This document shows positions 10,668 through 27,265 of a DNA stretch of 64,000 bases, one piece after another. The notes under the pieces are model-generated. The model was not told the origin of the DNA. It did no database searches and saw only the letters and a list, made by a program, of their open reading frames with translations. This DNA comes from Frondihabitans sp. 762G35 (GTDB lineage Bacteria > Actinomycetota > Actinomycetes > Actinomycetales > Microbacteriaceae). Numbering within the stretch: the first letter of the stretch is position 1; every line of letters begins with the position of its first letter. The translations under genes were made by a program, and so were the position numbers. The DNA is taken from NCBI RefSeq assembly GCF_002074055.1, contig NZ_CP014619.1, forward strand, positions 1,798,001 to 1,862,000. Reading direction: 5' to 3'.

Positions 10668-11549
10668 TCACCGTCGCTCCTGCGCACCGGGATCGGCTCG
10701 GGAAGCCGGTACGGCGACCGGCACCGAGTACGCCTCGGCGTGGATCCGGGGCTCGACGGCCACCCAGCCGCCGCGTGCCTGGCCGACCGATCGGGCGAGT
10801 GCCGAGCCGTCCGGCCCGATCCAGAGTTGTGCGGCGGGACCCCTTCCGGCGCCGCCGCTGCCTTCGACGGGCCCGCCCGCGACCAGTCGGCAGTCGATCG
10901 GGCGCCCCCGCCAGGGGACCCGCACGACGAGGGCGAGAGTGCCGTCGGCCGTCTCGTGCTCGATCAGGACGGCCCCGGGCACCCGTCGCGCGAGGTCCGC
11001 CGCGAGTCCTCGTGCCAGCCGACGGGCGAGCCGGGGCGGGGCGGAGACGAGGACGCCCCCGGAGGCCGGGACGAGGAGAGGGGCCCGATCGACGACGGGC
11101 CGGCGGTCGGCGTCGGCCCGGGGCTCCTGCGTGGCCGAGGGGCCAGGAGGGACGACCTCGATCGCCGAGACGACGCTCCCCCGCCCGAGCTCGAGGAACG
11201 GCCCGGAGTCGTCGCCCGGAGGCGGACCGGACGAGGAGGACCGGACGAGCTCGGCTCGCTCCCGGTCGAGGAGACGACGCAGGTCGACCGCGAAGGAGTC
11301 GCTCTCGGACTCGAACCGGCGCTCGTCGGCTCGTCGCGCGACTCGGGAGCGGATCAGCGACTCCGACCACGCGGCCGCGACGAGGACGGCGCCCGCTGCC
11401 GCCCCGACGGCGACGCCGGGTCGGAGAAGGCCGAGAGCGGCCGCCACGAGAGCCGCGACGGCCACGATGACGCCGGGAAAGGGTCGAGGGCGAGCAGGAT
11501 CCGGGGGGACCGGACGGTGGAGACGGACGCTGGGCGCGGGGCTGGGCAT
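10668..11549 (-). CDS. unrecognised membrane-anchored protein at end of kinase cluster
   Basis: A 293-residue protein of unknown family. Two adjoining hydrophobic stretches (about residues 20-58, GVIVAVAALVAAALGLL and GVAVGAAAGAVLVAAAW) probably form a hairpin in the membrane. The rest is an Arg-rich cytoplasmic region of about 230 residues with no motif recognised. The ATG is chosen because the hydrophobic segments begin just after it; no strong ribosome site is seen. It is the last gene of the long minus-strand cluster that starts with the Ser/Thr kinase, 109 nt after the zinc-ribbon/FHA gene. Confidence 0.7.
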   Translation of the reverse strand: MPSPAPSVRLHRPVPPDPARPRPFPGVIVAVAALVAAALGLLRPGVAVGAAAGAVLVAAAWSESLIRSRVARRADERRFESESDSFAVDLRRLLDRERAELVRSSSSGPPPGDDSGPFLELGRGSVVSAIEVVPPGPSATQEPRADADRRPVVDRAPLLVPASGGVLVSAPPRLARRLARGLAADLARRVPGAVLIEHETADGTLALVVRVPWRGRPIDCRLVAGGPVEGSGGAGRGPAAQLWIGPDGSALARSVGQARGGWVAVEPRIHAEAYSVPVAVPASRADPGAQERR

Positions 11550-11658
11550 GGAACGAGCAAAGCGTTTCCGCCGCTCAGACGGCGGGGCACGCGTCGATCT
11601 GTGGAGAACCCCGATTCCGTCGGATCCCTGTGGAGGACGCCTACACGGCCGGCGACCG

Positions 11659-13527
11659 TCAGTGCACGATGAAGAACTGCTCGCCGATGTCGACGCGGGA
11701 GCCCCTGACGACCCGGACCCGCTTGCCGGGCTCGCACGGTCGTGCCTCGCTCGACGGCTCTCGGACGACCGAGCCGTTGCCCGACCATCGGTCGGAGACC
11801 CAGAGCGCGCCGTCCTCCTGCCCGAACTCGAGGTGCGTCTTCGACACCGACTTGCCCGGGTCGACGATCCGCACGAGCAGGTCGATGGCCTCACCCGGTT
11901 GCGGTGTCGGGGCGCGCCCGACGAGGCCGCTCCCCTGCACCGTGAAGCTCTCCCCGGTGCTGAACTGCAGCACGAACGGCTCACCCAGCGGCTGGCGTCG
12001 GACGATGCGCGTCTTCTCGACGTCGTCCTCACCCGATCCGACCAGCCACGGCGCGGCCGACCGGGGCGACTCCGGAGCCTTCGGCACCGGGGCCAGGACG
12101 GGCTCGGCGGTCTGCGACGGGGCGGCCACGGGTGTCGCGGCGAGCGGGGCGGGAACGGGGACGGACGGGGTCGCTCGCGGTGCGACGGGCACCTCGTCGA
12201 CGCTCAGCGGCGGCGGGCCGGGTTCGGGGTCCGGCGCGGACGCCGGAAGCGGTCCGCCCGGGATCGGCGGGATCTCGGCACCCGTCGGCGTCGACGGGGA
12301 CGGCGAGGCCGTCGGTCCCGGTGCGGCGGTCGGGGACGGGAAGCCGGCGGCGGGCGTCGACCAGAGCTGCGGCGCGGCGTCCTGACCGCGACGGCCGAAC
12401 AGCCGACGCTTCTTGGCCTGCGGAGCCGCCGGAGGCGCGCTCTCCGGGGCCGGCGCCGGCTCATCGGCCCGGGGCGCGTCGTTCGCGGGGGCTCCGGTCG
12501 AGGGCTCGGCGTTCGCAGGCGCGGCCGGGCGACCCGGCGACTCCCGCGGTGATGCGGCGCTCGTCGGCGCGGGATCGGTGATGATCGGAGTGATCGGTCC
12601 GGTGAAGGACTGCGCGACCGAAGCCCGGACGGCGCCGCATTCGCCGCAGAAGATGTCGTCCTCGTGCAGCGGCGCGCCGCAGTTCGTGCAGTGCAGCCGG
12701 CCGTCGACGAGTTCCGAGGCCGGTGCGACGAGGGGCGCGATGACGTTGGTGTCGCCGGGGCGCGGGGCCTCGACGGGTCGGACGTCCTCCGTGCGGTCCG
12801 GCTGGTCCGACTCGTCGACGATCGGCGCCGGGGCGTCCCGCGGAGTGTCGAGCGGGCTCTCTCCGTGCGCGGCCGACGACTCCGCGTCGGCCCCGGCGTC
12901 GGCCTCGGTGTCCGTCACGGGCGTCAGCGATGCCGTCCAGAGGGGAGCGGACGTCGGCCTGCCCGACGGCGCGTCGACGCCGTCCGGGCGCCGGAGGGGT
13001 GCCGGTCGGGCCGGCTCGGTGGGGGCAGGAGCCCCGGCCCCGGCATCGGGTTCCGTCACCTCGTGACGCGCGGCGGTCCGTGCGCCGGACTCGTCGTCAG
13101 CCGTCGGCTGAGAAGAGGGCGGGGCCGACGAGACGTCGGCGGGCTGCTCCGGCTGTGGGTGCGTGAGATCCATCGGCTGTGAGGGAGACGGCTCCGCGGG
13201 CGACGGCGCTGAGGGAGACAGCTGTGAGGGCGACGGCTCCGCGGGCGACGGCTCCTCCGGGGCGGCGAGCGGGGCGACCTCGTCGACGCCGGCATCGTCC
13301 GGGTCGCGATCGCCGACCCACCACGGCGTACCCGCCGGAACGGCCGCGGCAGGAGGCTCCTGCAGCTGCCACGCGGGAATCGACTCGGGGGCCTCGCCCT
13401 CCGCGACGTCGGCCTCGCTGCCACGGCGTCGGAACGCCGCCCAGTCGGCGCCGGTGATGGACCGCCCGCACTGACCGCAGAACATGGCTCCGTCGGGAAG
13501 GGGACTCGAGCAGGTGGGGCAGTGCAT
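11659..13527 (-). CDS. double zinc-ribbon and FHA-domain protein
   Basis: A 622-residue protein. It opens with a zinc ribbon (CPTC...CGQCG, residues 3-23) and has a second one near residue 280 (CTNC...CGECG). These are separated by long Pro/Ser/Glu-rich, probably disordered stretches. A C-terminal FHA domain (about 520-622) keeps the phosphothreonine-binding residues: GR, S-x-T-H and N-G. It is likely a reader or scaffold for the kinase at 24284-25717 in the same cluster. ATG at 13527 lies 16 nt after the transglutaminase-like gene and uses a GAGGA site there; a longer in-frame start overlaps that gene. Confidence 0.85.
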   Translation of the reverse strand: MHCPTCSSPLPDGAMFCGQCGRSITGADWAAFRRRGSEADVAEGEAPESIPAWQLQEPPAAAVPAGTPWWVGDRDPDDAGVDEVAPLAAPEEPSPAEPSPSQLSPSAPSPAEPSPSQPMDLTHPQPEQPADVSSAPPSSQPTADDESGARTAARHEVTEPDAGAGAPAPTEPARPAPLRRPDGVDAPSGRPTSAPLWTASLTPVTDTEADAGADAESSAAHGESPLDTPRDAPAPIVDESDQPDRTEDVRPVEAPRPGDTNVIAPLVAPASELVDGRLHCTNCGAPLHEDDIFCGECGAVRASVAQSFTGPITPIITDPAPTSAASPRESPGRPAAPANAEPSTGAPANDAPRADEPAPAPESAPPAAPQAKKRRLFGRRGQDAAPQLWSTPAAGFPSPTAAPGPTASPSPSTPTGAEIPPIPGGPLPASAPDPEPGPPPLSVDEVPVAPRATPSVPVPAPLAATPVAAPSQTAEPVLAPVPKAPESPRSAAPWLVGSGEDDVEKTRIVRRQPLGEPFVLQFSTGESFTVQGSGLVGRAPTPQPGEAIDLLVRIVDPGKSVSKTHLEFGQEDGALWVSDRWSGNGSVVREPSSEARPCEPGKRVRVVRGSRVDIGEQFFIVH

Positions 13528-13543
13528 GGGTGGTGATGATCCT

Positions 13544-15955
13544 CTAACGCTTGGATGCTTTCCGGCCATGGTAGCGACGCAGGGAGCGGGTGGAGACGGC
13601 GGCCTTGAATCGCTCCCACCTCGTCAGACGCGAATCGAGCTGGACGCGCATCTCGCCGACGGCCTTCCAGACGCGATCCGCGTCGGCCGGGTCGGCCTCG
13701 TCGGGAGAGAAGACGGAGCGGTCGACGACCCGGGCGAGGACGGCCGGGCGCCGTCCGCCGACGGCTGCCGCGACCTCCGAGCGCGTCGCGGACGCGGGCG
13801 TGTCGATGCCGTGGTCGACGACGGCGTCCTCGAACTCCCGCCACCCGGAGGTCACCCGGCGGACCGGGTCGCGATCGCGCCTCCGACGCAGCCGGCGCCG
13901 GGCCTTCACCGCGACCACCGTCAGGAACGGCGCCATGGCGATTCCGGCCACGAGCAGCACCCACGCGGCGATGCGGACGACCCCGAGGAGCACCCCGAGC
14001 CACGCCGGCTGCTCCGCCGGGTTGTCCTGCTTGCTCTGCGGCTGCGTCTGGTCGACCTGGGGATCCTGCTGCTGCTGGGGCGGCGGGATGACCGACCGGG
14101 GCCGCGAGACCTGATTGGGGTCCTGCTTCGTCTGGTCGGGGATCGCCCGGGGTGCGGGGTTCGGGTCGAGCGTCACCCAGCCGAACTGGGCGGTGTCGAC
14201 CTCGATCAGGCTCGTGATGTCGGAGCCGCGGAACGTCGTGCTCCCCCCGGTCGACGACTCGGAGCGGAAGCCGAGCACGACGCGGGCGGGGAAGCCGAGC
14301 TGGTCGGCCATCAGGGCCGCGGCCGCCGAGTACTGCTCGGCGTCGCCGACCATGAGCTTGTCGGTGAAGAGCTGGGCGAGCCGGTCGGATCCGTGCCCGG
14401 AACGGCTGACCGGCTCTCCCGAGGAGACCCCGTGGCTGATGTAGCCGTTCTTCCGGAGGCCGTCGAGCGCCGCTTGGAGGCGCGCGCCCTGGCCGTCGAC
14501 GCCGTCGACGTAGGACTCCAAGGCGGTCTTGAGCGACGTCGGGACGGCGGACGGCGTCGGGACCGACCGGTCGCCCGGAGTCAGCGCGGCGAGTTGCTCG
14601 CTGGTCGGCTGCGTGGGAGCGACGGTGGTCAGACGGTAGTCGACCCCCTGCCCCACTCCCCCGACGACGGCGGCGGTGCCCGTGCTGTCGTTGTAGAAGA
14701 ACGCGTCACGCAGGCTCGCGGCGTCCGCTCCGGAGAAGTCGACGGTCTCGAGCTGTCCGACCGTCGGCAGCCAGACGCCCGAGTAGCCGTCGACCCGGAC
14801 GCCGACCGTCTGCTGCCGACCCGTCACCTTCGACTGGTCGAACGAGGTCGGGACGCGCGTGAAGGTCCCCGAGGCGGTCGAGGTGCGGTCGCTGCCGACC
14901 GAGAAGGTCACACCGTCGTAGGTGTCGAGGGTCGCGATCCGGACGAACTGCCCGGGCGCGAGCCCCGTCACCGTCAGCTGGGCGGAGTCGACCGCCGGTT
15001 GCTGCTCGTAGGCCCGGAAGCCGCTGAGCGGGCTCAGGTAGTCGCGGGGGTCGAAGGGCTTGATGACGGCCGTCCGCGCGACCCAGCGCGCACCCTGCGG
15101 CGCCAGCACCGACGCCGCACCGACACCGAGGGCACCGGCGACGAGGAGCGTCACGAGGGTCCCGCCCACGGCCCGCCGGGCGACAGCGCGATTGCCGGAC
15201 CGGTGGACGACGACCGCTTCGGCCGCGCGCGAGGCACCCACCGCGACCGGGATCGCTCCGGCCCGGGATCCGAGAGCCGTCTGCCGGGTCAGCCGCTCGA
15301 GAGCGAGTCGCCGCCGGCGGAGGCGGAAGAGCACGAGCCAGAGGACGCTGAGGGCGAGCAGCAGGAGCCCCGTCACCAGCGGCAGCACGGGCTCGCTGGG
15401 GCCGAGCACGATCCCGGCGACGAAGACGACGACCGGCACGACGAGGGCGACCTCGGGTCGCCGCGACCGCAGGGCGACCGACAGGCCGACCACGCCGCCG
15501 ACGAGGAGGAGCACGAACACGGGGACGAGGAGAGCCTGGTAGGCGCCGACGGGCAGCGTGATCGTCACGAGCTGCTTCCAGGCTAGCGCGACGCCGGCCA
15601 CGAGCTCGCGGAGTCCGCCGATCGTCGGCAGGAAGCCGAAGAGCGCCTGGCTCGGCACGGCCAGCCCGACGCCGAACACCCCGAACGCGACGACGACGAG
15701 CAGCAGGATCCAGAGGCTCGACAACCGCAGGAACACCCCCGCCAGCGAGATCACCGCGGCGAGGGCCAGCGTGACTCCGACGAGGACGAGGAATTCGGCG
15801 CTCCGGTAGACCGGCCAGAACGGCACGACGGCGGCCGCGAGGATCGCCACGAAGAAGAGGGTCTGGCCGACGGCCGCGGCCACGGTGAGCCGGCTCCTGG
15901 TCGATCGCGGCCGGAGCGGCGCGGACGGCCTCGCCGACGCGGACACGGCGCTCAC
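13544..15955 (-). CDS. TgpA-like transglutaminase-fold membrane protein, catalytic residues lost
   Basis: An 803-residue protein: about five or more N-terminal membrane helices (residues 30-220), an extracellular DUF3488/transglutaminase-like region, a Q/P-rich linker, another membrane helix near 640-665 and a cytoplasmic tail. In active homologues the core reads G-x-C-E-[HQ]-[YF] and later D-A-H-A-W. Here the same places read GDAEQYSAAAALMA and SDITSLIEV, so the nucleophilic Cys is Ala (codon GCC) and the His is gone. The fold remains but transglutaminase or protease activity is not expected. The GTG start overlaps the DUF58 stop as GTGA. Confidence 0.88.
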   Translation of the reverse strand: MSAVSASARPSAPLRPRSTRSRLTVAAAVGQTLFFVAILAAAVVPFWPVYRSAEFLVLVGVTLALAAVISLAGVFLRLSSLWILLLVVVAFGVFGVGLAVPSQALFGFLPTIGGLRELVAGVALAWKQLVTITLPVGAYQALLVPVFVLLLVGGVVGLSVALRSRRPEVALVVPVVVFVAGIVLGPSEPVLPLVTGLLLLALSVLWLVLFRLRRRRLALERLTRQTALGSRAGAIPVAVGASRAAEAVVVHRSGNRAVARRAVGGTLVTLLVAGALGVGAASVLAPQGARWVARTAVIKPFDPRDYLSPLSGFRAYEQQPAVDSAQLTVTGLAPGQFVRIATLDTYDGVTFSVGSDRTSTASGTFTRVPTSFDQSKVTGRQQTVGVRVDGYSGVWLPTVGQLETVDFSGADAASLRDAFFYNDSTGTAAVVGGVGQGVDYRLTTVAPTQPTSEQLAALTPGDRSVPTPSAVPTSLKTALESYVDGVDGQGARLQAALDGLRKNGYISHGVSSGEPVSRSGHGSDRLAQLFTDKLMVGDAEQYSAAAALMADQLGFPARVVLGFRSESSTGGSTTFRGSDITSLIEVDTAQFGWVTLDPNPAPRAIPDQTKQDPNQVSRPRSVIPPPQQQQDPQVDQTQPQSKQDNPAEQPAWLGVLLGVVRIAAWVLLVAGIAMAPFLTVVAVKARRRLRRRRDRDPVRRVTSGWREFEDAVVDHGIDTPASATRSEVAAAVGGRRPAVLARVVDRSVFSPDEADPADADRVWKAVGEMRVQLDSRLTRWERFKAAVSTRSLRRYHGRKASKR

Positions 15956-17451
15956 GCGGACACCGCCTTGGCCATCGACTTCTGGAGGTCCTCGAGATAG
16001 CCGACCGTCAGGACCGTCATGCCCGCGATCCGCACCATGCCCGGCACGACCTCGGGGTCGCACACGATGGCCACCGCCTCGACACCGGGCGGGAAGGCGG
16101 CCGCGGCCGCACGGAGCTCCGTGATGGTGGTCGTCGAGCCGACGACGAGGAACGCCACGGAGATGCCGCCGACCTCGTCGCCGGTCACCCGGGCGACGTC
16201 GGTGATGCGGAGCGCCGACTCGTCGAAGGTCACGACGGCGAGCTCGTCGAGGAGCCGCGTCCGCGTCAGCGTGCCGAGGGACTTCACCGCGAGCGTCTTG
16301 CGCTTGGCGAACTCCGGGGTGCGCTCGCTCACCACCACGCTCACCTCGCGGGCGTCGCGGATGGCACGGACGCCGAGCGAGGCCGCGACGCTGACCGCGA
16401 GCTCGAACTCGTCCTCGGTCGCGAAGTCGGCGTTGGCCAGGCTGAGGGCGATGACGATGTGGCTCCGACGGGTCTCCTCGAACTGGCGGACCATGTACGA
16501 CCCGGCTCGCGCCGAGGACTTCCAATGGATGTGGCGCCGATCGTCGCCCGGCACGTACTCCCGGAGAGCGTGGAACGAGATGTCGCTCGCCGACAGATCG
16601 CGCGTCGGGTTGCCCTCGAGATCGCGGATGAGACCGGTGCTGGTCGAGGGGATGCCGATCGTGCGGGGATGGACGAAGAGCTCCACCACGCCGGTCCAGT
16701 CGAGCTCGCGGCGGACGAGCCCGATCGGGTCGCCGCGGACGGTCCGGACCGGACCGACGGGGATCACGCCGCGCCGAGCCGTGGGAACGACGAAGGACTC
16801 CTCGACCGTGTCGCCCGCCCGGAGACCCGGCAGCGTGATCTCGGCCAGACCGCGCCCGATCGGGATCTCCACGGTCACGCCGAGCACCCGGCGCCGGGTC
16901 GGATTGGTCACGCGGACCTGCCCCGTCGCCTCCTCGCCGACCGCCACGCGGAGGTGAGGCAGGTCGAGGTCGATCGTGAAGGCGTTGCGGCCCACCGCGT
17001 AGAGCGCGGCCAGCAGGAGGAGGACGACGAGGGCGAAGCCGACGACGACGAACTCGACCCAGGCGAGGGCGTACCCCGCGACGAGGGCGGCCGGGGCGAG
17101 GCCGAGGGCGACCCACCCCGCCGGGGTGACGACGCTCGACGCCGCGCGCGCCCACCCGGCGACGACGGTGGCCACCGCGCGCCACAGGCGGACGGCGAGG
17201 ATCACCACGTCGGCGGTGAAACCCGTGCGCGTGCCGACGATCCGCGTGCGTGCGTTGGTGAGCCCCTCGGTGCCGGTGCCGTAGGCGGCGTCGCCCCGCG
17301 ACTCCTGCGGGTCGGCCCGCCGGGACGAGCGTGTCACGGCCCCACGCCTCTGGCTCGGCCCCGTCAGCGTCGTCGCGCGCACGCCGGGGCGCGGACGATC
17401 GTCGCCGTGCGGCGGAGACGGCGACCGGGTCGGCGGGAGGGGCGTGCTCAC
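15952..17451 (-). CDS. DUF58 membrane protein (second copy)
   Basis: A 499-residue DUF58 protein with a long charged N-terminus, two membrane helices (about 118-160), a beta-rich domain, then the DUF58 signature REYVPGDDRRHIHW (about 295-310) and a VWA-like end. It is longer and membrane-anchored, unlike the DUF58 gene at 2144-3079. The GTG start lies 7 nt after the MoxR stop, and its own stop overlaps the transglutaminase-like gene. This MoxR-DUF58-transglutaminase order is widely conserved in actinobacteria. Confidence 0.9.
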   Translation of the reverse strand: MSTPLPPTRSPSPPHGDDRPRPGVRATTLTGPSQRRGAVTRSSRRADPQESRGDAAYGTGTEGLTNARTRIVGTRTGFTADVVILAVRLWRAVATVVAGWARAASSVVTPAGWVALGLAPAALVAGYALAWVEFVVVGFALVVLLLLAALYAVGRNAFTIDLDLPHLRVAVGEEATGQVRVTNPTRRRVLGVTVEIPIGRGLAEITLPGLRAGDTVEESFVVPTARRGVIPVGPVRTVRGDPIGLVRRELDWTGVVELFVHPRTIGIPSTSTGLIRDLEGNPTRDLSASDISFHALREYVPGDDRRHIHWKSSARAGSYMVRQFEETRRSHIVIALSLANADFATEDEFELAVSVAASLGVRAIRDAREVSVVVSERTPEFAKRKTLAVKSLGTLTRTRLLDELAVVTFDESALRITDVARVTGDEVGGISVAFLVVGSTTTITELRAAAAAFPPGVEAVAIVCDPEVVPGMVRIAGMTVLTVGYLEDLQKSMAKAVSA

Positions 17452-17458: not shown

Positions 17459-18430
17459 TCACGCGGAGACGCGCTCCGCAGGAGGCGCGATCTCGATCAG
17501 GAGCTGGCTCACGATGCTGGAGGGGGTCACCCCGTCGAACTCCGCCTCCGGGTCGAGGACGATGCGGTGGGCGAGCACGGGCTCGGCGAGGAGCTTGACG
17601 TCGTCGGGCGTGACGTAGTGCCGACCGGTCGACGCGGCGTACGTCTTCGCGACCCGGATGAGCGCGAGCGCCCCGCGGACGCTGACCCCCAGCCGGACCT
17701 CGGGCGCGGTGCGCGTGCCCTCGACGAGTCGGGCGACGTAGTCGGCGACGACCGGGTCGACGTGGACGGTGCGGGCGAGCCGCGCCATCTCGGTGATGAC
17801 GGCGGCCTCGACGACGGGTGAGAGGGAGCCCTCGTGGACCCGGGTCGCCGCCCCCTCCAGGATCCGCAGCGTCGCGGCGTGGTCGGGGTAGCCGATCGAC
17901 GTCTTAAGCAGGAAGCGGTCGAGCTGGGCCTCCGGAAGGCGGTACGTGCCCGCCTGCTCGATGGGGTTCTGCGTCGCGATGACCATGAACGGGGCGCCGA
18001 CGGGGTGGGAGACGCCGTCGACGGTGACGCGCGACTCCTCCATCACCTCGAGCAGGGCCGACTGCGTCTTCGGGCTGGCCCGGTTGATCTCGTCGGCGAG
18101 GACGATGTTGGCGAAGATGGGGCCCGCGTGGAACTCGAACTCGCCGGTCTTCTGATCGAAGATGCTGACGCCCGTGATGTCACCCGGCAGGAGGTCGGGC
18201 GTGAACTGGATCCGGCTGCTGCGGCCCTGCACCGTCTGCGCGACGGCGCGCGCGAGCGACGTCTTGCCGGTGCCGGGGAAGTCCTCGAGGAGGAGGTGCC
18301 CCTCGCTCAGGAGCGCGGTGAAGGAGAGCTTGATCACGAACGACTTCCCGAGGAGGACGCGGTCGACGTTGGTCACCAGGCGCGCGAAGATGTCGGCGAA
18401 CCAGGTGGCCTGCTCGGGCGTCATGCTCAT
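17459..18430 (-). CDS. MoxR-family AAA+ ATPase (second copy)
   Basis: A 323-residue MoxR ATPase. Walker A is FPGTGKTS (about 51-58), Walker B is IVLADEIN (about 112-119), and the IATQNPIEQAGTYRLPEAQ block is typical. It is clearly a paralogue of the MoxR at 3135-4193 but has a canonical GxGKT loop and lacks the 35-residue N-terminal extension. It follows the giant Ig-like gene by 19 nt and precedes the DUF58 gene by 7 nt, so it is part of the kinase operon. The expected role is ATP-driven remodelling of the cluster's membrane proteins. Confidence 0.93.
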   Translation of the reverse strand: MSMTPEQATWFADIFARLVTNVDRVLLGKSFVIKLSFTALLSEGHLLLEDFPGTGKTSLARAVAQTVQGRSSRIQFTPDLLPGDITGVSIFDQKTGEFEFHAGPIFANIVLADEINRASPKTQSALLEVMEESRVTVDGVSHPVGAPFMVIATQNPIEQAGTYRLPEAQLDRFLLKTSIGYPDHAATLRILEGAATRVHEGSLSPVVEAAVITEMARLARTVHVDPVVADYVARLVEGTRTAPEVRLGVSVRGALALIRVAKTYAASTGRHYVTPDDVKLLAEPVLAHRIVLDPEAEFDGVTPSSIVSQLLIEIAPPAERVSA

Positions 18431-18449: not shown

Positions 18450-21400
18450 TCAGTTCGTCGGGGTCGAGTAGATCTTGTCGTAAGTCTGGCCGCCGTTGGC
18501 GGTGATCCGGATCAGGAGGGTCGGCGCGGCAGCGGGATCTCCGCTGTCGCCGACGCAGGTGTTGCCCGCTCCCGCCAGCGTCGGCTGCAGCAGACCGCCC
18601 TGGCACTGGAACTGCATGTTCTCGTACGCAGGGCCCTGCGGGGCGTTGAAGGTCCAGACCCCGACCTGGGGCCCGGAGACGGGATCGGGGGTGAAGGTCG
18701 CCTGAGCGACGTTCGCGCTGACCGGAACGATCGTCCGGGTGGCGGACGCGGGCCCGCAGTACGTCGTGGTCGCGTCGCGACAGCCGACGAAGGCGTAGGT
18801 CTGCGTCGTGCCGTAGACGCTCGAGTCGCCGCCCGTGAGGACGTCTCCCTCGCGGACGACCGCCCCCGGCTGACCGCCCGAGCTGAGCCGGAAGGACGCC
18901 GCCGTGCCGCTCGTGACGTCGAGACTCCCGACGACGACGTCGAAGGTCCCGCTGCCGGTGCCGCTCTCACGGAGCGAGACCGACCCGGTGGCGGCACCCG
19001 GCGCCTGCAGGCTGACGATCGAGTTCGACCGGGAGCTCGAGCAGAAGTAGCCGTTGTCGGCGTAGACGAAGTAGGTGTAGACCTGGCCGTCCTGCGCCGT
19101 TCTGTCCTGCCCGCCGGGGAGGGAGATGGCGGACGGCTTCGAGGTGGGCGAGCAGGCCGGGGCCGGCTGGTCGGCGCCCGTCGCGCGGCCGAAGCTGTAG
19201 CTGACCTGAGCGGCTCCCCCGGGGTCGGCCGCGCCGTTGGTGATCTGGACCGTGCCGTCGGTCCCGACGAGGCTCGCCGTCACCGACACCTGCCCGGGGA
19301 CGCCGACGGCCGTACCGGTCGCCGGTGCGCTCCGCGACCAGTCCGCCGCGCTCGACACCTGGGAGGCGTTGGTCGCGTAGACCTGCACCGTGTACTGGGC
19401 ACCGGGCGTGAGGCCACCGATCGTCGTCTGCGTGCCGCTCACGGTCTGGGTGCCCGGGGCTCCTGCTCCTGCGATCTCGACGACGTAGCCGCTCACGGCG
19501 GTGCCGCGAGCCGGCTGCGGGACGGTGTTCCAGGAGACGACGAGCGACCCGGGGGTGCTCGTCGACGGGGTCACCGTCACGCCCGTGGGCGCCGAGGGCA
19601 CGAAGTCGGCGCTGTAGGGCACGCTCTGCGGGCTGGACGGCGAGGTGCCGATCGCGTTGACGGCCTGCACCGAGAAGCGGTATCGCGCACCGGGGTCGAG
19701 ATCGGTCAGGGTGCAGACGGTCGAGGTGCCGCAGTCCTTCGTGTAGGTGCCCACGCTCGAGACGCCGGTCAGGCGGTAGGAGGTGATGGCCGAGTTGTTG
19801 GCCACCGGCGGCTGGTACGACAGCGTCAGCTGACCGCCGACGAAGGCGCCGGTGCGCAGGGGGGCCGCAGGAGCCTCGGGGACGTCCTGCACGGAGATCG
19901 TGACGTCTCCCCAGACCGACCGCGCCGGGTCGCCCGTGACGTCGGCCAGCTGGTATTGGAGGTTCGTGTTGAGCGGCTTCGCCGAGGCGGCGACGGACAC
20001 GGTCAGGCGGCTGTTGTCGGCGCTGGGCGTGACCCTCACCCCGGCCGGGAGCGACGAGCCGCTCAGGCCGCGGATGGCCACGACCCGGAGCGGCTGGCCG
20101 GGGAACGGGTTGGTGGCCTGATCGTTCGCGAGCACGTCGATGACCGTGGTCTCGCCGCGCTTCGCGACGGCGGAGTCGGGTGCCGCGATGGCGAGGGGCC
20201 GGGTCGAACCGACCACGGTCAGCGCGATGGTGCCGGACTGGGCCGCGGACACCGCGTCGCGGACGGTGAGCCCGAGGTTGCTCGTGAGGCCCTTCTGCGC
20301 GGACGCGTCGGCCGTCACCGTCAGCGAGCGCCCCTGAAGCGAGTAGCGGAACCCCGGGACGGAGGGGGTCGTGACGGCGTAGCGGAGCTCGCCGGCATCC
20401 TGCTGGCTGGTGTAGGTCGTCAGGCGGGAGAGGTCGAGGGTCCGGGAGTCGCCGGGCTCGAGGTCGAGGGTCGCGCCGGTGAACGAGGGCGGCTGGTTCG
20501 TGCGCGGGGTGACCTCGATCGGCAGGACGAGGGTGGCCCGATGGCCGTTCGGGTCGTTGGCCGACGTGCCGTCGGTCACCTGGAAGGAGATCGACGCCTG
20601 GCCGAAGAACAGCCGCGCCGAGGTGAACGACAGCGTCGTGGCGTTCACGACGAGATTCGCCCCGTCGGCGTGGGTCGCCCGAACGGTGCCGGAGTCGGTG
20701 AGCCGGACCCCGTTCGACCCCGTCGAGACGACGTACTTGTTGAGGTCGATGGTCAGCGTCTTCTCGCTCGACACCGTGAGGGGCGCCGCGGCCTCGTTGA
20801 TCTGCGGGAGGGCGTCGTTGAACCCGGGCACGCGGATGAACGCGTAGGCCCTGATCCGCGGGTCGTCGGGATGCGAGACCCAGAACGGGATGATCTGGCT
20901 CCGGTCGGTGACGGTGACGCGGATCCGGTGGGTGTCGGTGACGACGGCGTCGCGGCCGTAGCCGGGCTGGATGCCGAGCCCGAGCGCCGACACCGAGCCG
21001 TCGGCGAAGAACACGTTGGCGAGGACGTTCACGTCGACGGTCTTCCGGCCGAGGATGTCGGTCAGCGTCAGCACGCTGTCGTCCGCCTCGGGGTAATTGA
21101 GGGCGGAGTTCGGGTCGACCTTGACGGTGATGAAGTTCGAGCTGCTGCCGCCCACGTCGTTGGCGACCGTGTAGACGAGGCCGTAGGTCTTCGGCGTGCG
21201 GGGCGGTGTCACGCGGACGATGCCGCCCGGCAGGATCGTCGCCCGGACGTCGCTGTCGTTGGCTCGCACGCCCGTGATGTGGAGCGCGCCGCCGTCCGGG
21301 TCGGAGTCGTTCGCGAGGACGCGGACGAGGATGCTGCCTCCGGGCCGCATGGTGACGGCGTCCGGCACGGCGATCGGGTTGCGGCTCCCCTGAGCCCTGC

Positions 21401-24287
21401 CGGAGATGCCGATCCGGACCGTGCCGGTGGCTCGAGCGCCCAGCCCGTCGACCACCGTGTAGGTGAAGGTGTCGGTGCCGGCCGAATAGCTGCCCGCCTG
21501 GTAGTCGAGGTAGGTGGCCCCCACACTCGTCACGTTGCCCTTCTGCGGGTTCGAATCGATCCCGAGGAGCTGCACGGAGTCGCCGTCGGGGTCGATGCCG
21601 TCGAGCGGGACCTGGACGCGGACGCTCTGACCGGCCACGACGCGGCCGGTCAGGGTCTGCGGGACCGGCGGGTTGTTGGTCGCCGCGTCGGCCTCCCGGA
21701 CGGCGATCGCGACCTGACCGGTGGCACGCTGACCGTCCGGACCCTCGACGGCGTACTCGGCGGTGAAGTTGCCCGGTGTCGTGGGAGCCAGGTAGCGCAG
21801 CCGGGAACCCGAGACGAACAGGAGCCCGCCGCCCGTCGACACGTTCTTCACGAGGTTCGGCAGGAGCGTGATCGACTCGCCGTCCGGCTGCTCGTCGTTC
21901 GCGAGGACGTCGATGTTGACGGCGTCGCCCACCCGCGCGCTGACCTGGTCGTTGGTCGCGATCGGGGGCTGGAGACGCGTCGGACGCGGGATCTGGACGA
22001 CCGTGACCGTACCCGTCGCCGACGCCAGGCCGTTGGTGATCGTGTAGGTGAACGTCACCGGCCCGCTGTCGAGCGGCGCCGTCAGGGTGATCCGGAGGTA
22101 GCGCTGCTCGAGGGTCTGCACCTGCACGCCCGAGGTCGGGTCGACGGCGCCGACCGCCGTCACCATCAGGACGTTGCCCGCAGGATCCGAGTCGCTCTGG
22201 GTGATGTCGACCGTCTGCGTGCTGAGGCTCTGGACGAAGACCGTCTTGGGCGTCGTGACCGGCGCGGTGTTCGGCTCCGGCGGGGCCTGCACGTCGATCC
22301 GGACCGTGCCGGAGGCGGTCTTGTCGCCGTCCGTCACGGTGTACTCGACGTTGTGCGTCCCGACCTGGGTGCTCACGAAGGTGAAGGTGCCGGCCGAGTA
22401 GCTGGGCGTGATGGTCGCGCCGGCCTTCGCCGGGACGCTGTTCAGCTTGATGACCCCCGTCCCCCCGCTGGCGTAGCGGAGTGGGGTCACGGTCTCGACC
22501 TGGCCCGCGTAGGCCTCGACCGGGAACGACTTCGTGGTGAGCGGGGTCTGCCCGGCGCGGTCGACCGTGATCGTGACGGTGCCGCGCCCCGTCGCGGTCC
22601 CGTCGGAGACGCTGAGGACGATCTCCTGGGTCGACGGGCCTTCGCCTGCGTCCTGGTAGACGACCTCGCCCGTCGGTTTGAACGTGACCGTCCCGCCGTT
22701 CCCGCCGGAGGCTCCGGTCAGGTAGAACGGATCACCGTCGGGATCGAGGAACGACCCGGCGGTGTCGACGGTCACGCGACCCGAGGACGAGACGGCCGCG
22801 GTGATCGGACGGACCTGAGCCGGCGGGCTGTTCTCGCCCGGTTGCCGCACCGTGACCGTCGCCCGTGCCGTCGACGACCCGCCACGACCGTCGGTGATCG
22901 TGTAGTCGAAGGCGATCACACCGGCCGCACCGGTCGGGAGTGTCAGCAGCAGCTGCTGTCGACCAGCGATGACGTCGATCCGCCCCGTCGTCGCGGGGAG
23001 TCCGTCGACCTTGCTGATGACGATCGGGTCGCCGTTCGGGTCGTAGTCGTTGAGGAGCACCGGAAGGACGGTGGCTCGTCCCGGCCGGGCGCCCAGGACG
23101 TCGTCGACGGCGACCGGCGGCTTCTGCTGGACCTCCAGCTTCTGCTGATCCTGCTCGGTCTGCGTCTGCTCCTGCTGCTGGTCGCGCTCGTTCGTGATGA
23201 GGTCGGACCAGTTGTCGATGAGCTGACCGCTGCGCTGGACGGCCCAGCTCGACCCTCCCGCCGTGTCGTTCAGCACCACCCGGTCGCCGTTGACGGCGAA
23301 GGCGAGATCGGCCGAGGCGGGAACGGAGCGGAGCGTCTGGAGGGCACCGCCGGACGACCCGCAGTCGTTCCAGGCGGAGCCGTCGGCCCAGCCGGCCCAG
23401 GTGCAGCCGGCGGCGACGACGGGTCGGGCCGGCGACCCGGCGCGGTCGCGGACCAGCTCGGTCACGGCCCCCGAGAACGACACGGAGAAGAGGCCGTTGG
23501 TGGACGCGACGCGGACGGACGACCCGCCGTCGGAGGACTCCTGCAGGGCGATCCGACCGGTGACGCGCCCGGACAGGTCGACGCGCTTGCCGTCGACGAC
23601 GAGGACCGCGTCGTCGGTGTCGAGGACGGCCCAGTGCGAGCCGACCGAGGCCACCTGGAAGACGTGGGACTTCGGCAGTGCGAGCCGCGCGCTGGCCGTG
23701 ATGCCGAACTGCGCCACGTCGTCGACCCGGGACACGCGGCCGCTGTCGGCGGAGTAGACGGCGAGCGTGCCCGCGGGCGTGATGCTCGCCGTGGCGTCCG
23801 CACCGAGACTGAGATCCGCCTGCGACGAGGCGTCGAAGGCGTTCAGCCCGGACACCGGGACCGACCAGAACTGACCGGTTTTCGCCGACATGACGACGCT
23901 CGTGCCCCCGGCCAGCATCACCTCCGGCTCGTTCGGCGGAAGCGGCACGGTCTGCGCCACGGAGGCGGTCGCGGGGTCGACGACGCCGACGGTCGCGTTG
24001 CTCCGGTCGACGAGGAGGACGTGTGCGGGATCCTGGACGACCGCGAGATCGGCACCCGTGCTCCGCACGGCCGAGTTGAGCTGCAGGACGGACGGGTTCG
24101 CCCGGCCGATCGCGGTCAGACCGTCGTTCGCGACCCACACCGTGCCGTCGCCGAGGTCGAGCCTCTGGGCCTGGTAGCCGGAGCTCGTGATGGCGACCGT
24201 CGCGACGACCGCCGTGACGACCGCCAGTGCGACACCGGTCGCCGCCGACGAGCGGTGACCCCTGACCCAGCGCAGGAGCCGCTTCAC
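18450..24287 (-). CDS. giant extracellular Ig-like/cadherin-like and FN3 repeat protein
   Basis: A 1945-residue protein. The N-terminus has a short basic head and one membrane helix (about 18-36) acting as signal anchor, so the remainder is outside. Residues about 40-370 resemble a beta-propeller (VWVANDG, VLLVDRSNATVGVVDP). A QQQEQTQTEQDQQ linker leads into at least eight Big/cadherin-like domains with NDxDPDGD-type calcium-site motifs (about 390-1460). Two fibronectin type III domains follow (about 1467-1657), then a further degenerate beta domain. No sortase motif is present. The GTG start overlaps the kinase stop as GTGA, so the two are co-translated. It is probably an adhesin-like or sensory rod partnered with the kinase. 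Confidence 0.9.
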   Translation of the reverse strand: MKRLLRWVRGHRSSAATGVALAVVTAVVATVAITSSGYQAQRLDLGDGTVWVANDGLTAIGRANPSVLQLNSAVRSTGADLAVVQDPAHVLLVDRSNATVGVVDPATASVAQTVPLPPNEPEVMLAGGTSVVMSAKTGQFWSVPVSGLNAFDASSQADLSLGADATASITPAGTLAVYSADSGRVSRVDDVAQFGITASARLALPKSHVFQVASVGSHWAVLDTDDAVLVVDGKRVDLSGRVTGRIALQESSDGGSSVRVASTNGLFSVSFSGAVTELVRDRAGSPARPVVAAGCTWAGWADGSAWNDCGSSGGALQTLRSVPASADLAFAVNGDRVVLNDTAGGSSWAVQRSGQLIDNWSDLITNERDQQQEQTQTEQDQQKLEVQQKPPVAVDDVLGARPGRATVLPVLLNDYDPNGDPIVISKVDGLPATTGRIDVIAGRQQLLLTLPTGAAGVIAFDYTITDGRGGSSTARATVTVRQPGENSPPAQVRPITAAVSSSGRVTVDTAGSFLDPDGDPFYLTGASGGNGGTVTFKPTGEVVYQDAGEGPSTQEIVLSVSDGTATGRGTVTITVDRAGQTPLTTKSFPVEAYAGQVETVTPLRYASGGTGVIKLNSVPAKAGATITPSYSAGTFTFVSTQVGTHNVEYTVTDGDKTASGTVRIDVQAPPEPNTAPVTTPKTVFVQSLSTQTVDITQSDSDPAGNVLMVTAVGAVDPTSGVQVQTLEQRYLRITLTAPLDSGPVTFTYTITNGLASATGTVTVVQIPRPTRLQPPIATNDQVSARVGDAVNIDVLANDEQPDGESITLLPNLVKNVSTGGGLLFVSGSRLRYLAPTTPGNFTAEYAVEGPDGQRATGQVAIAVREADAATNNPPVPQTLTGRVVAGQSVRVQVPLDGIDPDGDSVQLLGIDSNPQKGNVTSVGATYLDYQAGSYSAGTDTFTYTVVDGLGARATGTVRIGISGRAQGSRNPIAVPDAVTMRPGGSILVRVLANDSDPDGGALHITGVRANDSDVRATILPGGIVRVTPPRTPKTYGLVYTVANDVGGSSSNFITVKVDPNSALNYPEADDSVLTLTDILGRKTVDVNVLANVFFADGSVSALGLGIQPGYGRDAVVTDTHRIRVTVTDRSQIIPFWVSHPDDPRIRAYAFIRVPGFNDALPQINEAAAPLTVSSEKTLTIDLNKYVVSTGSNGVRLTDSGTVRATHADGANLVVNATTLSFTSARLFFGQASISFQVTDGTSANDPNGHRATLVLPIEVTPRTNQPPSFTGATLDLEPGDSRTLDLSRLTTYTSQQDAGELRYAVTTPSVPGFRYSLQGRSLTVTADASAQKGLTSNLGLTVRDAVSAAQSGTIALTVVGSTRPLAIAAPDSAVAKRGETTVIDVLANDQATNPFPGQPLRVVAIRGLSGSSLPAGVRVTPSADNSRLTVSVAASAKPLNTNLQYQLADVTGDPARSVWGDVTISVQDVPEAPAAPLRTGAFVGGQLTLSYQPPVANNSAITSYRLTGVSSVGTYTKDCGTSTVCTLTDLDPGARYRFSVQAVNAIGTSPSSPQSVPYSADFVPSAPTGVTVTPSTSTPGSLVVSWNTVPQPARGTAVSGYVVEIAGAGAPGTQTVSGTQTTIGGLTPGAQYTVQVYATNASQVSSAADWSRSAPATGTAVGVPGQVSVTASLVGTDGTVQITNGAADPGGAAQVSYSFGRATGADQPAPACSPTSKPSAISLPGGQDRTAQDGQVYTYFVYADNGYFCSSSRSNSIVSLQAPGAATGSVSLRESGTGSGTFDVVVGSLDVTSGTAASFRLSSGGQPGAVVREGDVLTGGDSSVYGTTQTYAFVGCRDATTTYCGPASATRTIVPVSANVAQATFTPDPVSGPQVGVWTFNAPQGPAYENMQFQCQGGLLQPTLAGAGNTCVGDSGDPAAAPTLLIRITANGGQTYDKIYSTPTN

Positions 24288-25717
24288 CGACTGCCCTCGG
24301 GCGTCGCGCACTTCTCGGCGCTGGCGGGGCCGTTCTTCCCGGCCCGGTTGACCGTCACGCTGATGCAGACCTGCTGGCCGGCCTGGGCCGGCGCGACGAA
24401 GCTCGTCGCCGTCTGCGTGCTCGTGTCGGTGCCGGACGTGACGACGTAGGAGTCGCCCGGCTTGAGGCCGGGATCGGTCCAGGTGAAGCGGATCGAGCCC
24501 CCCGTCGCGGACGAGGCGATGTTCGCCACCTGCGGGATGTCGGTCGACGTGGCCCGGACCAGGAAGATCGTGGCCAGGCCACCGAGGGCCAGCACCACGA
24601 CGCTCAGGGCGATCAGGCCCCAGGTGAGGTAGTGGACCCGCCGCGGTGTCCGCGCCTCCGGCCTTGTTCCCGTGCTCCGGGGGATCGCGTTGCTGTTGTG
24701 GCCGGACGCCTCGCGGAAGGCGGGACCCGAGACGGCGACCGGCGCGCGCCGACGCCGGCGACGGGCACCACCGCCGGCGGGCATGGTCTGGACCCCGCGC
24801 ACCCGGGTGCGATCCTCGAGATCGGCGACGGTCGCGAGAGCCCAGTCGTCGACGGCGACCTCGACCGCGGTGGGCGACACCCCGAGCTCCGACTCCACCT
24901 GCTGGAACTCGCGGATCAGGTCGATCGCGCTGGCCTGCCGGTTCTCCGGCCGGTGCGACATCGCGCGCTGGAGGGTCTTCTCGAGGCTCGCGGGGACGTC
25001 GGTGCGCCCGATGGCCTGGATCTTGCCCTTCTCGATGCGGGACATGAGGTCGTGGGACGTGTTCGATCCGCCGAGCACCTCGAAGGGGCTCCTGCCGGCC
25101 AGGAGGGAGTAGACCGTCGCTCCGAGCGACCAGACCTCGGACTCGATGGTGCCGGAGGTGTCGTCGCGGAGCACCTCCGGTGCCGACCAGGGGATCGAGA
25201 GGCCGACGACGTCGCTCGGCTCGCTCTCGCCCAGGGTCGCGGCGATCCCGAAGTCGGAGAGCACCGGATGGCCGTAGGCCGTGGTGAGGATGTTGGAGGG
25301 CTTGATGTCGCGGTGGAGCACGCCCTGGCGGTGTGCGGTCTCGATCGCGCTGCCGATCTTGATCGCGATCCGCAGGACGTCGGGGACGGGGATGCGCTCC
25401 CGCCGGTAGCGCTCGCTCAGCGACGCGGAGCAGAGCTCCATGACGAGATAGGGGCGGCCGTCGGCCGAGACGCTCGCCTGGTAGACGGTGAGGATGGACG
25501 GGTGGGCGCTGAGCTGCGCCATCAGGTTCGCCTCGGCCTGGAACATCTGCCGGACCTGGTCGTTCACGACCTCGCTCAGCATGACCTTGACGGCCACCTG
25601 GCGGCGCGGCATGTTCTGCTCGTAGAGGAAGACGTCCGCGAAGCCCCCCGAGCCGAGGACGTGCAGGTGTGAGAAGCCGGGCAGCACCGGGGGCTGCGAC
25701 GGCAGACGCCGTGCCAT
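24284..25717 (-). CDS. membrane Ser/Thr protein kinase with extracellular FN3-like tail
   Basis: A 477-residue Hanks-type kinase. Residues 14-275 hold the catalytic domain: glycine loop GSGGFADV (22-29), Lys44, HRDIKPSN (135-142), DFG (155-157) and an APE-type motif SAPEV. An Arg-rich juxtamembrane region (RRRRRR near 315) leads to a membrane helix (about 360-385). The outer part of about 90 residues is FN3-like (FTWTDPGLKPGDSYVV), not PASTA. It should be a receptor kinase. A GAGGGGG ribosome site precedes ATG, and a TACAAT promoter lies about 70 nt upstream. It heads the operon with the giant Ig-like gene. Confidence 0.93.
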   Translation of the reverse strand: MARRLPSQPPVLPGFSHLHVLGSGGFADVFLYEQNMPRRQVAVKVMLSEVVNDQVRQMFQAEANLMAQLSAHPSILTVYQASVSADGRPYLVMELCSASLSERYRRERIPVPDVLRIAIKIGSAIETAHRQGVLHRDIKPSNILTTAYGHPVLSDFGIAATLGESEPSDVVGLSIPWSAPEVLRDDTSGTIESEVWSLGATVYSLLAGRSPFEVLGGSNTSHDLMSRIEKGKIQAIGRTDVPASLEKTLQRAMSHRPENRQASAIDLIREFQQVESELGVSPTAVEVAVDDWALATVADLEDRTRVRGVQTMPAGGGARRRRRRAPVAVSGPAFREASGHNSNAIPRSTGTRPEARTPRRVHYLTWGLIALSVVVLALGGLATIFLVRATSTDIPQVANIASSATGGSIRFTWTDPGLKPGDSYVVTSGTDTSTQTATSFVAPAQAGQQVCISVTVNRAGKNGPASAEKCATPEGSR

Positions 25718-25782: not shown

Positions 25783-25788
25783 ATTGTA
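25783..25788 (-). promoter_or_regulatory. -10 box of the kinase operon promoter
   Basis: TACAAT on the minus strand, about 65 nt before the kinase ATG, is the best promoter hexamer in the 217-nt gap between the phosphatase and kinase genes. The matching -35 is weak. Confidence 0.45.
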
Positions 25789-25810
25789 AGCGGAGGGCCC
25801 CTGGGCGAGC

Positions 25811-25863
25811 AGGGGTGCGGACCCCCTCTGGGGATAACTGCCGCTCCCCCACTTCGGGGGGCG
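25811..25863 (-). terminator. possible terminator hairpins after the PP2C gene
   Basis: Two GC-rich hairpins lie downstream of the PP2C gene: a CCCCC/GGGGG stem at 25846-25860 and a GGGG/CCCC stem near 25812-25826. There is no T tract, so termination would be weak or factor-dependent. Confidence 0.35.
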
Positions 25864-25934
25864 AACGGGTCGACCGCTCACCCCGCGCGAGGGACCGTCG
25901 AGGGCAGGATGCCCGGACCGCCGTCCCCCGAGGG

Positions 25935-26765
25935 TCAGGCGCGCGGCGTCTGCCCCGTCGGAACGGTGGACTCGACGTCGACCGCCTCGACCGTGCCCCG
26001 GACGTCCACCACGACGGCCGTGACGTTGTCGCGACCCCCTGCGGCGACGGCGTCGCGGACCAGCGAGTCGGCTGCATCCTGCGTGCCGGGGTGGGTGACG
26101 AGAGCCGCGGCCAGGGCGCTCGCGCTGAGCTCCTTCGTGAGCCCGTCCGAGCAGATCAGGAGTCGGAGGCCCGGTCGGGCGGGGACGCGCCAGTAGTCGG
26201 GGCTCGGCTCGGCCCCGAAGCCGATCGCCTTGGTGATGACGTTGCTGTCGGGGTGCTTCTCGGCGTCGTCCGGGTGCAGCATTCCGGCCTGCACCATCTC
26301 CTGCACGACGGAGTGGTCGACGGTCACCTGGCGGAGCACTCCGGAGTCGAGCATGTACACCCGGGAGTCGCCGACGTTGAAGATCGTGAAGTAGGGGGCG
26401 TCGCCCTCGCGCGAGAGGACCGCTCCGGTGACGGTCGTGCCGACGCCCAGCTCGGTGCCGATGGCGGCGACGTCGATGTCGTCGCTGGCGAGGCGGAGCG
26501 CCTCCTCGAGCGCCTCGGTGTCGAAGAATTCGCCGTCGATGGCCTCGTCGAGCCGCCGGACCACGGCATCGCTCGCGACGTCGCCCGCGCTGTGGCCGCC
26601 CATGCCGTCGGCGACGACGAAGAGCGGCGAGCGGGCGAGGTAGCTGTCCTCGTTGTGGGCGCGGCGGAGGCCCACGTCGGTGGCTCCCGCCCAGTCGAGC
26701 ACGACGTCGCGCCCGTCGCCGAGAGGGATGGTGTGCGCGGTCGTCGGGCGGCCGATCTCTGTCAC
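25935..26765 (-). CDS. PP2C-family Ser/Thr protein phosphatase
   Basis: A 276-residue PPM/PP2C phosphatase with all metal-site motifs: NED (38-40), VADGMGGHSAGD (51-62), NVGDSRVY, CSDGLT and GRDNVTAVVVD near the end. It has no membrane segment and should act in the cytoplasm, most likely against the neighbouring kinase and its FHA-bound substrates. GTG at 26765 overlaps the stop of the FHA gene as GTGA. The gap of 217 nt to the kinase contains the kinase promoter, so FHA-PP2C is a separate transcript from the kinase operon. Confidence 0.94.
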   Translation of the reverse strand: MTEIGRPTTAHTIPLGDGRDVVLDWAGATDVGLRRAHNEDSYLARSPLFVVADGMGGHSAGDVASDAVVRRLDEAIDGEFFDTEALEEALRLASDDIDVAAIGTELGVGTTVTGAVLSREGDAPYFTIFNVGDSRVYMLDSGVLRQVTVDHSVVQEMVQAGMLHPDDAEKHPDSNVITKAIGFGAEPSPDYWRVPARPGLRLLICSDGLTKELSASALAAALVTHPGTQDAADSLVRDAVAAGGRDNVTAVVVDVRGTVEAVDVESTVPTGQTPRA

Positions 26766-27265
26766 GGGTGTGGTTCTTCCTGGAGGGTGATGCGCGAAAG
26801 GGGGAGGATCTCGAGTCGGTTGCCGTCCCCGATGTCTACTATCGTGCCCGCGAGCACGACTCTCGACTCGCCCTGCCGAAGAACGGCGGGTTGCCTCCCC
26901 GGGACGTCGACGCGGGTGCCGTTGGTGGAGCGGAGGTCGGTCACGACCGCGACCGCGCCGTCCTGGCGGATCTCGACGTGACTCGACGATACCTCGCCGA
27001 GCGGAGACGCGACGGTGACGAGCTGCGGGACCTGGCCGCGGACGACGCGGGGGCGGGAGGGCCGACGCCCGACGACGACCGGGGCGTCCAACGTCAGGAT
27101 GCTGGTCCCGACGCGAACGCGGAGGCGCGGGAGCGGAGCGTGCGGGTGCGGGTCGTGCCCGCGGGAAGCACCGACGCCGGGGTGGCCGACGCCGGGGTGT
27201 CCGGCGACGGGGGCCGAAGCGGCCACCGTGTCCTCGCCGTCGTCGGCGCGTCGATCCGTGTCCAT
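26762..27265 (-). CDS. FHA-domain protein
   Basis: A 167-residue protein with a variable, His/Pro-rich N-terminus and a C-terminal FHA domain (about 60-160). Phosphothreonine-binding residues are intact: VVVGRRPS, SSSH and STNGT. It is a probable reader of the kinase's phosphorylation. ATG at 27265 is preferred; a GTG four codons upstream and an ATG 20 codons upstream are alternatives. A TAGCGT hexamer (27276-27281) sits 10 nt before this ATG, suggesting a very short leader. It is coupled to the PP2C gene by a 4-nt overlap. Confidence 0.85.
   Translation of the reverse strand: MDTDRRADDGEDTVAASAPVAGHPGVGHPGVGASRGHDPHPHAPLPRLRVRVGTSILTLDAPVVVGRRPSRPRVVRGQVPQLVTVASPLGEVSSSHVEIRQDGAVAVVTDLRSTNGTRVDVPGRQPAVLRQGESRVVLAGTIVDIGDGNRLEILPLSRITLQEEPHP

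Follow-up and report, generated by a model that had tools for sequence, protein, structure and literature searches.

The stretch of DNA analysed here (the window) comprises 64,000 nucleotides of Frondihabitans sp. 762G35, a member of the Microbacteriaceae (contig NZ_CP014619.1, positions 1,798,001 to 1,862,000), and contains a run of nine minus-strand genes read from 27265 down to 10668. In order, these encode an FHA-domain protein of 167 residues (26762-27265; Pfam FHA, 25.5 bits), a PP2C Ser/Thr phosphatase of 276 residues (25935-26765; Pfam PP2C, with a Stp1/IreP-like score of 195 bits, under the cut-off of 230), a membrane Ser/Thr kinase of 477 residues (24284-25717; Pfam Pkinase), a 1945-residue protein called the rod (18450-24287; six Big_9 and two fn3 stretches by Pfam), a MoxR-type AAA+ ATPase of 323 residues (17459-18430; Pfam AAA_3 at 209 bits, and AAA_lid_2), and a DUF58 protein of up to 499 residues, its start codon being uncertain (15952-17451; Pfam DUF58, 46.9 bits). 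They are followed by a TgpA-like membrane protein of 803 residues with a transglutaminase fold (TG; 13544-15955; Pfam Transglut_core and TgpA_N), a protein with two zinc ribbons, a long linker and a C-terminal FHA domain (11659-13536; Pfam Zn_Ribbon_1, and FHA at 20.4 bits against a cut-off of 20.7), and gene X (10668-11549), which has no Pfam match and resembles the non-ATPase N-terminal part of a short EssC/EccC-like ATPase. A preliminary description of this DNA had placed the first eight genes, including the 1945-residue rod, at these positions on the minus strand, and Pfam agrees with its calls; it overlooked X. The GTGA stop/start overlaps that it reported at FHA/PP2C, kinase/rod and DUF58/TG are directly visible in the sequence and suggest coupling of the neighbouring genes. 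A consensus promoter scan of the cluster found none, and the promoter/terminator scan was uninformative.

The catalytic motifs of the kinase and of PP2C are complete by sequence and the phospho-binding patterns of both FHA domains are intact (GR...SxxH...NG in the upstream protein), judged against motifs that we take to be diagnostic. Kinase residues K44, H135, D137, N142 and D155 are invariant in 49 sequences spanning the window to Bifidobacterium, as is a cysteine pair, C451 and C470, in the outer tail. AlphaFold2 predicts a transmembrane (TM) helix at 360-390 and an outer beta domain at ~395-477 with seven strands at high confidence; from these strands and its sequence, the tail appears to be FN3-like. 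The rod has a TM helix (16-35), a beta-propeller (46-353), a helix (360-388), Big_9/cadherin-like repeats, the two fn3 stretches and a C-terminal region. The propeller at its base, unnoticed in the preliminary description, was predicted by fold search; a profile of the rod N-terminus gave no match to PDB sequences up to E 1. The TG had been called a dead transglutaminase, and the alignments agree: at the position that we presume to be that of the catalytic Cys, the window has Ala (GDAEQY), and all 20 rows, window included, carry A, G, D, E or S in place of Cys, next to a Glu-Gln that is invariant in the same alignment. A second alignment is non-Cys in 16/16 rows (the window and five from the Bifidobacterium group among them). 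Usual TgpA proteins retain the active site. The TG looks like a pseudoenzyme across the family; its bifidobacterial counterpart has been described as "presumably a cysteine protease" (PMC8430577).

Five of these genes (kinase, rod, MoxR, DUF58 and TG, hereafter the core) match, in order and direction, those of the PFNA operon of Bifidobacterium, listed as pkb2, fn3, aaa-atp, duf58 and tgm and followed in some species by prpC, a hypothetical gene and fha (8-gene list in PMC8430577). The rod N-terminus and the kinase are homologous to the Bifidobacterium proteins, at 19-27% and 30-38% identity, respectively; the nearest named kinases, at 66-71%, are from Frigoribacterium. With a profile of the Bifidobacterium-group rod N-terminus, 62 named loci were found, most from Bifidobacterium and others from Frigoribacterium, Microcella, Clavibacter and Planctomonas deserti, and kinase, rod and MoxR lie in that order in 62/62, the flanks of some stopping short of TG. 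Five genomes of family group f72 (the Bifidobacterium group) have kinase-rod-MoxR-DUF58-TG, with MoxR uncalled in one, and in two of them PP2C, an unassigned gene and FHA follow TG as in the published list, FHA being called on the opposite strand. Codon-model gene calling misassigned the strand in some regions of high GC content (G590, G541 and G592 among them), and presence was recounted from all open reading frames (ORFs). The likeness extends to the same invariant Cys pair in the kinase tail, to the Cys-less TG of five Bifidobacterium-group genomes, and to the rod: the FN3 protein of B. longum has 1994 residues with fn3 at 1494-1671 (PMC10688814), and the best fn3 stretch of the 1945-residue window rod is 1486-1555. 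The window differs in that PP2C and one FHA gene lie upstream of the kinase and the zinc-ribbon FHA gene follows TG, then X, at whose place relatives of the window carry an EssC-like ATPase. Judged by this homology, the window cluster represents the PFNA operon as it occurs in Microbacteriaceae, and the relation to a bifidobacterial cluster drawn in the preliminary description is borne out by the named loci, the published gene list and the gene order in Bifidobacterium-group genomes. The operon has been published as "found only in bifidobacteria"; this restriction does not hold, since homologues occur in environmental actinobacteria.

Within the Microbacteriaceae, TG matches were found in 100/120 genomes, and 14 of the 20 without one are of 1.8 Mb or less. 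In 20 regions chosen among these hits, all five core genes are present, always in the order rod-MoxR-DUF58-TG; the kinase immediately precedes the rod in 17 and lies further downstream in three (L053, L054 and L056). Because the five genes are present in 20/20 regions, the cluster is not a chance grouping, and the gene order whose loss in relatives would have told against the preliminary description is largely conserved. In an order-wide sample, the TG ectodomain profile has matches at E 1e-15 or better in 178/198 genomes, many of these matches being weak. By sequence and predicted fold, these comparisons show that the core (a membrane kinase with an outer beta domain, a membrane-anchored propeller/Ig/FN3 rod, MoxR, DUF58 and a Cys-less TG) is conserved jointly from Microbacteriaceae to Bifidobacterium and other families. 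A suggestion that the kinase tail and the rod have co-evolved found no specific signal: over 31 clusters, with correction for MoxR distance, the tail correlates at 0.18 with the FN3 end of the rod (permutation 0.022) versus 0.58 with its Ig part and 0.53 with the TG ectodomain, and we rejected specific kinase-tail/rod co-evolution on these values. In a second cluster type, an FHA domain is fused to an RDD membrane domain (L053:15676-16815 and L054:3404-4969).

The gene that follows TG or the zinc-ribbon FHA gene in Microbacteriaceae is often an FtsK/SpoIIIE protein of ~800-1100 residues, nearest to the EssC/EccC ATPases of type VII secretion at scores under the equivalog cut-offs. Among 68 listed genes for this short ATPase, 45 have a TG hit no more than 20 kb away, and 45/45 of these are downstream on the same strand, at a median gap of 1.6 kb. 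A second kind of locus has an EssC-like ATPase of ~1430-1525 residues and WXG100 proteins near the core. Three full-size ATPases beside the core, tested with NCBIfam, score 519-534 bits for EssC and 348-366 for EccC_a (again under equivalog cut-offs), and FHA domains are present in all three full-size-ATPase loci examined by Pfam (L121, L127 and L137). Core-linked loci of relatives hold both a Walker A-bearing EssC/EccC-type ATPase and an adjacent WXG100 gene (28.0 bits against a cut-off of 27.3 in L127; below the cut-off in L119). The family listing has 62 EccC-size ATPases; for 18 of these a TG hit is at most 20 kb distant, and 10 of the 18 are downstream of it and on its strand. Genome G499 has the whole set in line: rod, MoxR, DUF58, TG, FHA, PP2C, FHA, kinase, a 239-residue protein, ATPase and WXG100. 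Directly after the WXG100 gene of L127 comes a 365-residue protein with a weak WXG100-like match (11432-12529), a candidate secreted substrate, and proteins of 323 and 365 residues with weak WXG100 matches are similarly placed in G499 and G549. Another protein type of ~245 residues, FHA-like at its N-terminus by eye and without a Pfam match, occurs mostly near the kinase in core-linked loci (L127:5737-6468).

Outside Microbacteriaceae and Bifidobacterium, the fetched stretch includes an EssC-like ATPase in 13/21 core-bearing genomes; the 13 represent 11 family groups, and in 11/13 the ATPase is on the core strand. A WXG100 match is present in 10 of these 13 and in 11/21 overall. These are hand counts of an all-ORF listing that required rod, MoxR and TG (20 genomes, 12 with ATPase), with two additions, the G431 ATPase, which spans two stretches, and G537 (MoxR); the WXG100 match of G417 comes also from gene-called regions. 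The 24 genomes originally considered were reduced by three, G290 for lack of a rod match and G445 and G530 as fragments. An automatic tally gave 12 cores, 6 with ATPase and 7 with WXG100, and required DUF58, which the overlap filter often dropped. A first ATPase tree had 11 core-linked sequences, to which the final tree added nine others: all 13 non-Microbacteriaceae ATPases and 7 from Microbacteriaceae form one clade with support 0.987. In the Bifidobacterium group, WXG100 was found in 12/14 genomes and a short EssC-like ATPase in 12/12; the WXG100 gene adjoins a gene of 536-539 residues in 3/4 loci, and Pfam identifies groEL in the two tested. The short ATPase of this group adjoins genes for LytR-CpsA-Psr proteins (cell-wall polymer ligases) at L308 and L310, which hints at a wall-linked role.

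A distinct WXG100 protein of ~95 residues, whose gene is not linked to the cluster, also occurs in Microbacteriaceae, where it adjoins groEL: in 7/7 loci, the only ones viewed for this adjacency, there is a convergent gene of 536-543 residues, and Pfam finds Cpn60 in the one tested. Its profile separates cleanly, with E 2.1e-22 or better in 85/120 genomes and the next match at 3.2e-13. With set borders of our own choosing (short ATPase, 68 listed genomes at E 4.6e-70 or better, plus 9 weaker matches on shorter open frames; groEL-type WXG100, the 85 genomes above; close core, the 60 genomes with TG at E 3e-135 or better), the short ATPase and the WXG100 gene occur together in 67 of the 120 genomes; one has the ATPase only, 18 WXG100 only and 34 neither. 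Counting the nine weaker short-frame matches gives 76, 1, 9 and 34. In the 93 genomes above 2 Mb and at least 90% complete, the numbers are 63, 0, 1 and 29, and by genus (85 genera) 56, 1, 6 and 22. Within the 60-genome close-core set, the short ATPase and the groEL-type WXG100 gene are present together in 46 genomes and absent together from 14, with no discordant genome.

The window genome, a single contig that is 100% complete, is one of those 14. PF06013 found no WXG100 match in it at 0.001, and the best hit of the groEL-type profile was partial, at 0.018; at its groEL locus (L324, 498252-499868), the histidine-kinase neighbour is conserved and the slot that holds WXG100 in relatives is empty. 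A short-ATPase query gave 2e-16 at best in this genome, which is the level of FtsK, and no significant ATPase-domain match was found in 8901-12100 or in the window ORFs. The window cluster thus has neither an EssC/EccC-type ATPase nor a WXG100 gene. X matches the N-terminal profile of the short ATPase at E 1e-9, with biased composition, and its orthologue in L039 does so at 1.3e-17; X is likely a relic of the ATPase N-terminus. Ratios of nonsynonymous to synonymous substitution rates (dN/dS), from our own Nei-Gojobori script, are 0.12 for MoxR, 0.23 for PP2C and DUF58, 0.26 for the kinase and FHA, 0.30 for TG, 0.34 for the rod, 0.46 for zinc-ribbon FHA and 0.62 for X against the congener G087, with 0.31 for the neighbouring OsmC gene. 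That X is an independently maintained gene we judged unlikely, given that it is the fastest evolving (0.62-0.83) and matches the ATPase N-terminal profile. By these ratios, the core is under purifying selection in the window lineage, and the motor and WXG100 appear to have been lost in the window genome while the core was kept. G087 itself has two core clusters (L037 and L052), one without the ATPase, like the window, and the other preceded by WXG100 genes and lying near an EccC-size ATPase that belongs to another clade. Elsewhere in the window (689-4193, minus strand), ~13 kb from the PFNA-type MoxR, lies a second MoxR gene (3135-4193), followed by a DUF58 gene (2144-3079), a gene for a 158-residue protein without assignment, and one for a VWA protein (689-1690).

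Taken together, we favor, with a probability of about 0.58, the reading that the cluster is a phospho-regulated envelope module whose complete form is partnered with a type VII-like motor and which has been kept in the window genome without that motor. We infer the whole kinase/PP2C/FHA and MoxR-DUF58-TG mechanism from anatomy and linkage. The kinase would sense the state of the envelope or of the rod and phosphorylate its partners, namely MoxR and the ligands of the FHA readers; Pkb2 of B. longum is reported to phosphorylate the MoxR protein of the same operon (PMC8430577). PP2C would reset this phosphorylation. MoxR, DUF58 and the pseudo-transglutaminase may assemble or gate a membrane complex that takes the rod across the wall, and the ATPase would drive WXG100 export through or beside that complex. 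In the window genome, the ATPase would be reduced to its N-terminal part (X) and WXG100 gone; since the core is still under purifying selection without the motor, a stand-alone envelope sensor or scaffold is its most likely role there. Of the earlier interpretation, the PFNA relation and the gene order stand; it had not seen the type VII link or the missing motor and WXG100, nor X and the propeller.

Several observations weigh against this reading. The core survives without the motor in 14/60 close-core genomes, and over all 120 genomes the association between close core and ATPase is modest (46/14 versus 31/29; Fisher 0.007). The joint counts of short ATPase and WXG100 carry no genome-tree correction. 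In four genomes of the family, the short ATPase is present and TG gave no hit, PP2C and ATPase occur without the core at L157-L160, and 23/68 listed short ATPases are not near a TG hit (some contigs are short). As cores occur without the motor and ATPases without a TG hit or core, neither strictly needs the other. The 21 core-bearing genomes were picked from strong TG hits rather than at random, and some stretches reach contig ends. Of 16 full-size ATPases fetched near a core or TG hit, five (L123, L124, L129, L131 and L139) fall outside the 0.987 clade and group near a T7SSd-like ATPase of bifidobacterial origin, so such cores have EssC ATPases of more than one lineage nearby. In Bifidobacterium, the core, short ATPase and WXG100 are at separate loci, the short ATPase falls outside the Microbacteriaceae short-ATPase clade, and in G570, from that group, ATPase and WXG100 are present with no core match. 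Finally, dN/dS against G110 is higher, at 0.20-0.48 for core genes and 0.83 for X.

Some of these points would fit an independent envelope-stress or cell-wall sensing/assembly module made up of the receptor kinase, PP2C, the FHA readers, the MoxR-DUF58-TgpA-like group and the surface rod, to which type VII genes are frequent neighbors and not functional partners. Its case lies in the purifying selection on a core without ATPase or WXG100 in the window lineage, in the unlinked bifidobacterial loci, and in the DUF58 and transglutaminase genes that often follow MoxR in other bacteria (PMC6803598). However, a single EssC clade adjoins the core in 11 other family groups as well as in Microbacteriaceae, and the short ATPase, where near, is invariably downstream on the same strand; we regard the independent module as possible and rather unlikely. 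In the published view of the bifidobacterial operon, cytokine binding by the rod and transmission of host signals by the kinase make the cluster a host-immune sensor and adhesin; for B. longum GT15, FN3 fragments are reported to bind TNF-alpha and TNF-alpha is reported to induce the operon (PMC8430577, PMC10688814). But homologous clusters are present in Frigoribacterium, Clavibacter, Microcella and Planctomonas deserti, and TG matches run through most of a family that includes the window; with clusters in environmental actinobacteria, it is unlikely that the cluster serves in general to bind an animal-immune ligand, and we consider this explanation of the window cluster very improbable. Slightly less probable still is a biological-conflict (defence) system of the MoxR-vWA-beta-propeller kind. 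Both window MoxR proteins do exceed the Pfam bpMoxR cut-off (40 versus 27 bits) and a propeller is present, but their AAA_3 scores of 203-209 bits are far above the bpMoxR score, and a word search of the main text of the paper on such systems (PMC7159879) found neither DUF58 nor type VII.

Returning to the phospho-regulated envelope module, the apparent link of a PFNA-type core to type VII secretion genes is new here; a literature search for it found none among open-licence PMC papers. We tentatively extend it, at somewhat less than even odds, as follows. The core-linked EssC clade, with MoxR, DUF58, pseudo-transglutaminase and propeller/Ig rod, may be an undescribed type VII secretion subtype of Actinomycetota, whose envelope part under phospho-control would be the PFNA core. 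The Microbacteriaceae and bifidobacterial forms would be split or reduced (WXG100 beside groEL, the ATPase shortened), and the envelope part would be independent of the motor in some lineages, including that of the window. If so, the "immune-sensing" operon of bifidobacteria would have arisen by domestication of the envelope complex of a secretion system. PFNA is a published and actively studied operon, described as an immune sensor unique to bifidobacteria, and its presence in environmental actinobacteria alters the question of its purpose. The published PFNA selection analysis ran without an outgroup because none was known; the environmental clusters supply outgroups. Moreover, the tie to type VII genes makes the role of the operon directly testable and, if the link holds, adds a type VII variant that is under kinase control and has both a surface rod and an assembly group of chaperone and pseudo-enzyme.

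Two known kinds of system invite comparison. MoxR-DUF58-transglutaminase (MRP) triads share the succession of MoxR, DUF58 and a TgpA-like membrane protein; the triad described here differs in being joined to a receptor kinase and a rod, and in the absence of the TG Cys from all aligned sequences. The other is the set of type VII secretion systems (T7SS) with kinase, phosphatase and FHA proteins (T7SSc-T7SSj, PMC11217815), of which T7SSd is nearest. A T7SSd-like locus, L316 of the Bifidobacterium-group genome G487, has WXG100, a 1401-residue Ig protein and a 1523-residue ATPase; it is on the PFNA-core contig, with WXG100 ~24 kb and the ATPase ~33 kb from the TG match. This locus is apart from the PFNA core, and its Ig protein is unmatched by the rod profile at 1e-3. 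The words MoxR, DUF58, PP2C and transglutaminase are absent from the main text of PMC11217815, which names its phosphatases PPM; the window rod differs in its N-terminal TM, and the window itself differs in lacking an ATPase domain and WXG100. Core-linked loci of relatives share with T7SSc-T7SSj an EssC-like ATPase that has FHA at its N-terminus, WXG100, a large envelope protein of Ig-like type, a membrane kinase, a PPM phosphatase and FHA proteins, and phospho-control has been proposed for other T7SS variants as well (PMC11217815).

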